Positions 1,055 to 59,295 of a stretch of DNA of 64,000 nucleotides are shown piece after piece. Origin of the DNA: Candida dubliniensis CD36 (taxonomy: Eukaryota; Ascomycota; Pichiomycetes; Serinales; Debaryomycetaceae). The stretch's first letter is position 1, and each line of letters begins with the position of its first letter. The stretch covers positions 124,001 through 188,000 of the forward strand of contig NC_012867.1 in assembly GCF_000026945.1 (NCBI RefSeq). The letters are read 5' to 3'. The notes beneath the pieces are model-generated. The model was not told the origin of the DNA, searched no databases, and was given only the letters and a program-made list of their open reading frames with translations. The translations under genes and the position numbers were made by a program.

Positions 1055-1063
1055 CATAACCAT
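1055..1063. repeat. Target-site duplication, left copy (9 bp)
   Basis: CATAACCAT directly abuts the left terminal inverted repeat. The same 9 bases follow the right inverted repeat at 3295-3303. A 9-bp direct repeat outside long TIRs is the hallmark of Mutator-superfamily insertion (9-11 bp duplications are typical). Confidence 0.9.
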
Positions 1064-1094
1064 GATGCTATCTATTTTGGCGGTGAATTGACAG
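1064..1094 (+). repeat. Left terminal inverted repeat of the MULE
   Basis: These 31 bases are the exact reverse complement of 3264-3294. Identity stops at position 1063 (mismatch), which coincides with the inner edge of the 9-bp duplication, so the element boundary is sharp. Confidence 0.95.
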
Positions 1095-1948
1095 AAAATT
1101 GCCAATGGCGATAACATGCATATTTGAGCATAAGAATTCTGCATGTTGTACTCCTTTTGTTTACATTTTTTTGTTTACATTTTGCTTACCTCCAAAATAT
1201 CTTTCATCCCTTGCTCTGTCCTTTTTCTTCTTCATGATGATAAATGCCAGGCTGGCGTGACCTCAATTATTTTCCTCTCACCACCACTTTTTTCTCCTTC
1301 TTCTTTCACCATTCGTTCATCAATCCATCAGTTTCCATCATAAATCAATCAAATAGTTACTGCTACTGGGATTACAGATACTTTAAGTCATGATATGTAT
1401 GATTAATACCCTTGTTTTTGAAGAACTGTGCTTACTAACTAACTAATATAGATGAGTTATTGATTTTTGTTTGACCAGTAGGTGTCAAACTTTTGGAATT
1501 GCTATTTGGTGAGTTATAATAATTCAAGAATGGTGTACTTCTATTTGACAATTTCTGTCGGATGTTATTGCTCAAATTGCTTGATGCTAAAGTGGGTTTT
1601 TATGTTGAGGATTGAATAGCGAGTGGCATGTTCATTATCCATGAAATCTTATTATTAGGGCTGTTGAGTGGATCATTTAACTTGATTTGACAGGGGCTTA
1701 GGGCTATTAATTTGCATTTACTCGAAGTTATGGTATGATCTAAACTAGTTTTCCACTTCAACAATTACAGATAGATAAATTGTTAGTGTGATGTACATTT
1801 TCCAGCCAATTTGGATTTATGATTCAATATCAAGGGCACAAACGAGTTTTTATAAAGTATATACTTATTTATAGAGGTTTTGTATTCAATGAGATGAGTT
1901 TAAGTTAATGATTTGATCATAATTAATGTGTCATATCACATAAAGTAG

Positions 1949-2771
1949 CCTAAGGTTTCTCACGGTCACAAGAACGCTGCTGTGGAATACGAGGAATACC
2001 ACTGCAACCGTGGTGATTCCTATACTCAAACAAGTTTAAACCATCAACAAAATCAAAGTGAAGCTGCGAATGAAAACAATATCAACAATGTATTTGCTGT
2101 GAAAAAAAGAAACAGAAAAGAATCCATAAAAATAAACTGTCCAGCAAAAATCATAGTTCAGCAGAAACATAAAGGGGAACAGTGGTTTGCTGATTGGATT
2201 TATCACCATAACCATGATTTTTCAAATAGCTACTACCATAATAGTCGATTAAGCAAAAAAATTGGTTGAAGAATTGAGGATTTCAATACAACAACAAACT
2301 CCAATAGTTGAAATAATCAATTCAATGTTGGATCCAATTTACAGAAGTTGCCAAAATGTGGCTCTGAAATTAAAACAAATTGTAGTTTTTGAAGACAAGC
2401 AGCGACAAAAGGCTATTCATGACCGGATAATAAAAGACTTGCAGCATATTTTATTCAATCCAGAAATACTGAAAATGATATCCAAAGTTTTCTTAACAAA
2501 TATGCATCTTTTGAAAGATTTATAACCTATTTTAATTGAGCTGCTCACTTCACTGCCACCTCCACATCACAATACAACAGCTTTAGCAATTGACAATACA
2601 ACAGCCTCAACAAGTCATAATACAACAGCTTCAACAAGTCAGAATATGCTGAATATATCAAGAATAAGTGCAGATAACTTTGAGAAACTCGATGATATGG
2701 AGAACGGTCTCCCCCAACTATGCGAATTAATTGCTGATATTAAAAGACGAAAGCTATACGAAAAAAGCTAG
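1949..2771 (+). pseudogene. Broken MULE gene with FAR1/WRKY-GCM1-like zinc finger
   Basis: An open frame follows the TAG at 1946-1948 and has no ATG before its stop near 2268. It contains Cys at 2003-2005, Cys at 2138-2140 (context KINCPAKIIV), a Trp and HHNHD (HNH at 2207-2215). The order C, C, W, HNH resembles the FAR1-type DNA-binding domain of MULE transposases, also related to yeast Aft1. At an A7 run (about 2254-2261) the sensible frame moves to another phase and continues (KKLVEELRISIQQ...) to a TAA at 2523-2525. The same phase then reads on as a Thr/Ser/Asn-rich tail with a short tandem repeat (NTTASTS) to the TAG at 2769-2771. A second frame around 2465-2540 also looks coding, implying a further indel. 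There is no DDE domain. I read this as a decayed, internally deleted transposase gene; a captured regulatory gene is the alternative. Confidence 0.7.
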
Positions 2772-3017
2772 TTCAATGATATTTACATAACGTACCTTGT
2801 ACTTAAGAAAGATTTGAAACATTTATCTTCTGGCAAGAGAAACTTATCATATACTAACAAGTCAGAAAAACGAAGGAGATTAAATGAATGAATTGTTCTT
2901 ATTATTTTATATAAAGTTTGATTTTATATGTAGTTGTTTGTTTTATTAAGACTTGAAATGAGAAGCCGAAGAGATGGGGCCGAGTTCAATTCTCTAGTGC
3001 GAGGAAGTAGTACCACT

Positions 3018-3040
3018 TCGACCTAGAGTTGTCGACCTAG
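3018..3040. repeat. Short direct repeat TCGACCTAG x2 inside the element
   Basis: TCGACCTAG occurs at 3018-3026 and 3032-3040, next to a small inverted pair GAAGT/ACTTC (about 3004-3019). It lies in the non-coding right part of the transposon. It may be a subterminal repeat of the kind bound by transposases, but two copies are too few to be sure. Confidence 0.4.
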
Positions 3041-3263
3041 GCAAAGATCAAGGGATAAAGAATCCAAAAAAGGAAATTTAGGGGAGGATAATTGCATATT
3101 TTTTCTATTTATAGTAATAGAAATACTATTTTCGAACCGGCTCCATACATATTTTGCAGTAGAAAAGATGACTCTTTATTGAATTTTCTTCCTAAACTAG
3201 TAACTGAGAATCTGAAAATCACACGAGAAATATGCATGCAGTAATTAAAAAAAAAAGAAATTC

Positions 3264-3294
3264 CTGTCAATTCACCGCCAAAATAGATAGCATC
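3264..3294 (-). repeat. Right terminal inverted repeat of the MULE
   Basis: Exact reverse complement of 1064-1094 (31 of 31 bases). It is followed at once by the second copy of the 9-bp target duplication. Confidence 0.95.
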
Positions 3295-3303
3295 CATAAC
3301 CAT
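3295..3303. repeat. Target-site duplication, right copy (9 bp)
   Basis: CATAACCAT, identical to 1055-1063. Without the element and one copy of the duplication, the flanks join as ordinary intergenic sequence. Confidence 0.9.
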
Positions 3304-58596: not shown

Positions 58597-59295
58597 CTTC
58601 AAAATGAGGAAATAGGTTTCTGAAGACAAAGCTTGTTAAAAAAAATATTGAAAAAAAAAAATAGAAGATTAAAAAGTTGAAAAAACAATTTGGGGGACAA
58701 AAAAATAATAAATGCTCTCAGCAGGATTCGAACCTACGATCTCCTCATTACTAGTGAGGTGCCTTACCAACTTGGCCATAAGAGCTTGATTTCTGGTGGA
58801 TAAAATTCTAGATCTTTTTTGAAGTGACTATTGTATTAAAATCAATTCTTGTTCATGACAGGTTTGATAGAATTATTTTAGTTCTATTCCTTTTGCTTTG
58901 GTTTCCAGGAAGAAGGAAGCGTTTTAAGATGAATGTATTAATCTAAGCTGGCAAAGTCAAATGCTTTCATATAAAAATACTTGGGAAGCAAAAATAGTTT
59001 TTGATGTGATTTAGAGAAAATCTGACACCAAATTCCCGATTTACTTTCACGATAATAATATCTCAATTAAAGATCTTCATAATCTGAACACTGACCAATT
59101 ACTCTATTTCCATCCAAATCATTTATATGCTAGCTAGCATAAAAAAACATATTTTATTAAATACGAAAGCAGTTTATCTATAACAGAAATACAAGGAAAT
59201 ATACAATTTCCATTCAGCTAATTATTCTCATATCTTTGAAAAATGAAAGCATTTAAGGCCAACATAGATGGTAAGTTACTCATAAAACAATATCA
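58597..59295. other. Intergenic region carrying tRNA-Thr
   Basis: Apart from the tRNA gene at 58713-58785 the region is AT-rich. The stretch 58786-59295 (upstream of the tRNA and at the 3' side of the mannosyltransferase) has no gene or recognisable LTR, although tRNA flanks are common LTR sites. Confidence 0.5.
58713..58785 (-). tRNA. tRNA-Thr (AGT anticodon)
   Basis: A 73-nt cloverleaf without intron. The acceptor stem GCTCTTA pairs with TGAGAGC, with discriminator A. The D-arm includes TGGCCAAGTTGGTAAGGC (A box), and the anticodon stem-loop is CCTCA-CTAGTAA-TGAGG with AGT at the centre. The T-arm carries GGTTCGAATCC (B box). A run of T on the coding strand follows the 3' end (plus-strand A run 58699-58705), a pol III terminator. 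Confidence 0.97.

Follow-up and report, generated by a model that had tools for sequence, protein, structure and literature searches.

A probable non-autonomous Mutator-like element family with perfect terminal inverted repeats in Candida dubliniensis CD36

The element in the window and its ends

We analysed a stretch of 64,000 nucleotides from the genome of Candida dubliniensis CD36, hereafter the window, which corresponds to C1:124001-188000 (contig C1; coordinates given without a contig are those of the window). It holds on its plus strand an entire copy, 2231 bp long (1064..3294), of a Mutator-like element (MULE) delimited by terminal inverted repeats (TIRs) and a target-site duplication (TSD). 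The 31-bp left TIR (1064..1094, plus strand) and the 31-bp right TIR (3264..3294, minus strand) are identical at 31/31 bases, or at 35/37 when extended, and the same letters, CATAACCAT, are found directly outside both of them, as the left TSD at 1055..1063 and as the right TSD at 3295..3303. The initial annotation had reported 31/31 TIRs with a 9-bp duplication at 1055..3303, and these coordinates proved exact.

Between the ends, a remnant frame of 106 codons (1949..2266, plus strand) carries a FAR1-type DNA-binding segment, detected with PF03101 and with a MULE-derived profile; all translations used code 12, in which CTG encodes Ser. The inner gene continues in a different frame with a second open piece (2253..2522, plus strand), whose profile match is not above background, and then with a third (2526..2768, plus strand), a C-terminal-like tail whose likeness to transposase tails was judged by eye only. 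Alignment with the other copies described below placed a 51-bp segment absent from 4/7 copies at 2260..2310 (plus strand; gap placement approximate) and 24-bp tandem units at 2567..2646 (plus strand), three of them in the window copy, two copies being 24 bp shorter. Known RNA families were searched for inside the element at E <= 1, yielding none. The sole tRNA predicted by ARAGORN in the window is a tRNA-Thr (AGT) outside the element, on the minus strand at 58713-58785.

No exact inverted repeat in the window exceeds the TIR pair in length when arms are required to lie 0.3-10 kb apart and low-complexity sequence is filtered out. Two controls rule out a chance repeat: the longest exact inverted repeat reached 14-19 bp in 40 first-order Markov simulations of the window passed through the same filter, and, among the seven loci that carry the element, exact 9-mers were present at 0/23,548 shifted end pairs.

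Independently of the full-length search described below, these loci were also recovered by searching the whole genome (14,618,422 bases, 8 contigs) for the 31-bp end, as the initial annotation had proposed. Permitting up to 3 mismatches, we found 14 sites, all of them exact and together forming seven inverted pairs, each with direct repeats of 9-10 bp, and 0 sites for a reversed control pattern of the end. When the end was shortened to 20 bp, again with up to 3 mismatches, a single additional site was found, compared with 3 for the reversed control. All seven copies thus have 31/31-bp TIRs at both termini. Every copy also has an exact TSD, of 9 bp in 6/7 copies (CATAACCAT, TAAAGTAAG, TGATTAATC, GAAAAAATA, TATTGAAAC and TGAAATCAT, on the fetched strand) and of 10 bp in the remaining one (CTATTACTAC, fetched strand). 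These lengths fall within the 8-11 bp stated for MULE target duplications in PMC6446971. A search of viral contigs, from which near records may have been omitted, returned 0 exact matches to the 31-bp end.

Dispersal and divergence of the seven copies

A genome search with positions 1055-3303 as query detected at least seven full-length copies, including that of the window, spread over contigs C1, C3, C4 and C5 and ranging in length from 2170 to 2249 bp. The other six are 95-99% identical to the window copy as reported by the search tool, which counts gaps. Counting substitutions only, divergence over the 21 copy pairs ranged from 0.27% to 2.11%, with the window copy and the copy at C4:1583072 as the closest pair (6/2231 sites, 0.27%). 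The 51-bp gap is common to four copies, and the 24-bp gap is found in two of those four. Substitutions were detected in 79/2252 columns of the family alignment and in 0/62 TIR columns; since only about 2 variable TIR columns would be expected, their invariance does not by itself imply selection. None of the seven copies lies within an ATG-started frame of at least 120 codons, the nearest such frames being 292, 397, 487, 569, 947, 1407 and 2279 bp away.

Their high identity could in principle reflect segmental duplication or an assembly artefact instead of transposition. We consider the probability of this negligible: the 14 flanks of the seven copies (about 1.5 kb each) share no similarity with one another at E 1e-4, and the explanation is refuted by the exact target duplication that each copy has of its own at its TIR ends. 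Perfect ends at seven genome sites therefore indicate fairly recent movement, and we conclude that the family is recently mobile. Recent mobility had been proposed from the window copy in the initial annotation, which counted the lack of any other copy as an argument against it; six further full-length copies exclude that case and, with their unrelated flanks and individual 9-10-bp duplications, support the proposal. A protein search using a 179-aa piece of the inner gene as query identified 3 near copies (163-180 aa) among 15 candidates, all 3 on contigs no longer than 2370 bases.

At one locus, the element copy C4:1583072-1585319 is bracketed by two open frames, L049:1514-2593 (359 aa) and L049:6807-7895 (362 aa, in the coordinates of the extracted locus). 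Both match PF25640, a small capsid protein family of dsRNA viruses (E 4.2e-113 and 3.8e-100 respectively), and the two share 34% identity across an alignment of 205 positions. Judging from these matches, they appear to be endogenous RNA-virus capsid-like genes with the transposon between them.

A DNA-binding remnant and no catalytic domain

The segment starting at 1982 matches FAR1 (PF03101) with an E-value of 3.1e-4 and 21.8 bits, below the cut-off of 28.1. We also used a profile of eight MULE-related DNA-binding segments, taken from seven loci of the same genome and from protein P0007 and including zero members of the window family. It matched the window remnant (E 7.6e-8) and was found in 7/7 family copies (E 3.5e-9 to 6e-6), against a background in which the best of the 1241 other window frames scored 0.62. 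With profiles of the transposase middle and tail, the element pieces did not rise above background, so the transposase origin is demonstrated for the DNA-binding part only. TIRs, 9-10-bp TSDs, dispersed copies and a DNA-binding remnant matching MULEs together bear out the initial identification of the element as Mutator-like.

The DNA-binding segment lies in a 179-codon frame that is open in 4/7 copies; the window copy is one of the three in which it is broken, in agreement with the broken internal gene previously described for the window copy. Because of the open copies, we considered whether the element still encodes a DNA-binding-only protein, acting as a transposition repressor or a host gene, an option for which it also speaks that five other MULE-related lineages of this genome match the DNA-binding region with no catalytic match. 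We regard it as very unlikely. No ATG was found ahead of the segment in the four open frames, and substitutions are equally dense within the frame and outside it (19/537 variable columns, compared with 27/854, 19/352 and 14/390 elsewhere, hence not rarer). The scorable changes in the frame (n=18) comprise 10 nonsynonymous and 8 synonymous ones, where a ratio of about 3.06 is expected, which amounts at best to weak constraint, and four of the 18 sit at the 51-bp gap. Internal deletions that spare the ends account for the same pattern with no function being invoked. We therefore read the 179-codon frame as a passive remnant, possibly under weak constraint. An AlphaFold model of the DNA-binding remnant had a mean pLDDT of 34 and was unusable.

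The catalytic domain was sought by several routes. Searching the whole genome with the MULE DDE transposase profile (PF10551) at E <= 1 gave 4 matches, none within the seven copies, but this search overlooked at least one frame, the 1005-aa frame on C7 described below. Because the model is weak for the transposases of this host (24.3 and 25.3 bits on two intact ones, against a cut-off of 27.6), an absent match is weaker evidence here than usual. Queried by tblastn with 12 transposase frames or pieces of the host, the seven copies showed nothing convincing beyond the DNA-binding part; the best matches outside it were to the tail (E 0.018) and to a post-catalytic stretch (E 0.21). An X-padded protein query recovered 0 full-length relatives among 80 candidates at E <= 1. 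The initial reading can accordingly be refined: the element is non-autonomous, with no catalytic domain found in 7/7 copies.

Transposases that might act on it were looked for in the same genome, which has three long open MULE-transposase frames, of 1059, 843 and 1005 aa. Two are intact, with D, D, CxxH, E and SWIM-like motifs identified by pattern matching, a pattern that we take to define MULE transposases: the 1059-aa frame at C3:2018908-2022084 and the 843-aa frame at C5:291123-293651. The open 1005-aa frame at C7:1066.2-1068.1k aligns with residues 216-573 and 680-902 of the 1059-aa transposase, which are the spans holding the catalytic and SWIM-like motifs. Broken or partial transposase genes are present at C3:836.7-839.3k, C1:1854-1856k, C3:2025-2026k and C7:1030k. 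A protein search with the 843-aa transposase retrieved one protein among 3711 candidates.

We found no autonomous MULE sharing the 31-bp ends in the genome, as all 14 ends belong to the seven deleted copies. Scans for a TIR and TSD around the C5, C3:2018.9k, C3:837k and C1 transposase genes, with a tolerance of up to 5 mismatches in 20 or 8 in 25, recovered the window element and found no convincing pair at these genes; imperfect ends such as those of family B (see below) would escape such scans. TIR-like arms at the C5 gene were rejected as poly-A/T, an imperfect 38-nt pair flanking the C3:2018.9k gene was rejected for having no clean duplication outside it, and all pairs from a relaxed TIR scan had 6-8 mismatches in 25. 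At the C7:536k relative, a match of 12 bp was put down to chance. Any trans-acting partner among these genes is thus putative.

Origin, relatives and significance of the family

Taken together, these observations lead us to interpret the element, with a probability of about 0.92, as a non-autonomous MULE that arose by internal deletion, kept its ends and a DNA-binding segment, lost the catalytic domain and is moved in trans. An internal deletion of a MULE would have left both ends and the DNA-binding part of the transposase gene in place; a MULE transposase encoded at another locus would then bind the 31-bp ends, excise the element and reinsert it with a stagger of 9 bp, rarely 10 bp, and repair would convert the stagger into the target duplication. 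The ends, duplications and copies are directly observed, while we infer the action of a transposase, the excision and any present-day activity; the family probably moves in trans.

A parallel case, which displays such an origin more directly, was found in a second family, family B, whose ends we located only through the exact 9-bp duplication. Its two copies, of about 6 kb each, lie at C2:1848703-1854663 and C3:84112-90074, have imperfect TIRs and exact 9-bp TSDs (CTGTCTGCC and TTCAGAATC, one per copy), and are 99.6% identical across the 5574 bp compared. A single comparison of the family B DNA-binding frame with the 1059-aa transposase showed the two to be related (29% identity across 120 residues, E 1e-12), tblastn of the 1059-aa protein on the C2 copy covered residues 105-335 only, and the two copies yielded no catalytic match. 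At C7:1065.3-1068.5k, two abutting family B pieces are matched at 99% with about 1.9 kb in between, and this extra sequence overlaps the 1005-aa open frame; the comparison gives the pattern that would be expected from internal deletion of a MULE parent. Family B resembles the window family in its 9-bp TSDs, its DNA-binding remnant and the lack of a catalytic match, and differs from it in its size of about 6 kb, its imperfect and dissimilar TIRs and its two copies, and also in that a locus 99% related to it contains a long transposase frame.

Duplications of 8-10 bp are also made by other superfamilies, of the hAT, P, Merlin and Rehavkus type. Because the catalytic domain is missing, we base our assignment on the TIRs, the length of the TSDs and the DNA-binding remnant, and an element of one of these superfamilies that acquired a FAR1-like fragment could be imagined. 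We consider this highly improbable, as the 9-10-bp TSDs, the 31-bp TIRs and a remnant matching MULE loci of the same genome fit a MULE directly, and family B, of similar anatomy, has a relative that keeps a long MULE-type frame.

Together with the window family and the short copies of family B, the loci C7:535.8k, C2:1744.8k, C7:582k and C6:617k make up six candidate lineages of DNA-binding-only MULE derivatives, those at C7:582k and C6:617k being known from match positions only. At C7:535754-536699 lies an 84%-identical relative of the 843-aa gene (C5:291123-293651) with its catalytic middle deleted. The frame at C2:1744803-1745981 is intact and encodes 392 aa; its FAR1-type segment scores 25.4 bits against a cut-off of 28.1, and a catalytic match is absent. 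We read it as a MULE-derived gene, possibly domesticated. A 589-aa open frame at C7:581953-582999 matches the 1059-aa transposase at residues 93-166 and 198-386, likewise with no catalytic match. Outside the family, the nearest relative of the window-family DNA-binding segment is C6:617114-617407, part of a 208-aa open frame (44% identity over 93 residues, E 7.7e-17); searches with the 1059-aa and 843-aa transposases listed no C6 match. It is conceivable, if unlikely, that the MULEs of this host have been repeatedly reduced to DNA-binding-only forms, some of which may be transposition repressors or emerging host regulators. Were this so, the genome would offer a live version of the path from transposase to transcription factor.

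The family can be set beside known elements. In maize, Mu1-type elements are non-autonomous, have kept their ends and lost their transposase, and are moved in trans by an autonomous element. The window family is like them in its retained ends, absent transposase and probable movement in trans, and unlike them in that their TIRs, of about 200 bp, are far longer and their matching autonomous partner is known, none having been found here.

Closer in host range, MULEs with 9-bp duplications have already been reported from C. albicans and Yarrowia lipolytica. Phantom-Ca, a group 2 MULE of C. albicans with a 9-bp TSD, a 34-bp TIR, one ORF and no zinc finger (PMC6446971), shares with the window family a Candida host, the 9-bp TSD and a short TIR (34 bp as against 31 bp); in contrast to Phantom-Ca, the window family has no catalytic ORF and carries a FAR1-type remnant, a comparison made by description only. 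Cmut1, a Mutator-like element on chromosome R of C. albicans (PMC6593122), is likewise a MULE of a Candida host. Scanning four Cmut1 primers against 16 loci gave at best 14/20 or 15/21 bases, which says nothing on kinship. Mutyl of Y. lipolytica (PMC5014426), also a budding-yeast MULE with a 9-bp TSD, is 7.4 kb long, with imperfect 22-bp TIRs and MudrA and MudrB, whereas the window element is 2.2 kb long, with perfect 31-bp TIRs and no transposase.

Among the literature matches listed, no title or beginning of an abstract gave an account of the window family, which may already be named in Repbase. According to a 2020 review, the DNA transposons of C. albicans, including its MULEs, were not characterized in detail (PMC7175516). 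What the window adds is a compact, cleanly preserved family in the sister species of C. albicans. The several long open MULE-transposase frames of the genome make the identity of the enzyme that moves the family a testable question, and because the TSDs are readable and the closest pair of copies differs at so few sites (6/2231), the presence or absence of each copy can be scored directly, strain by strain.
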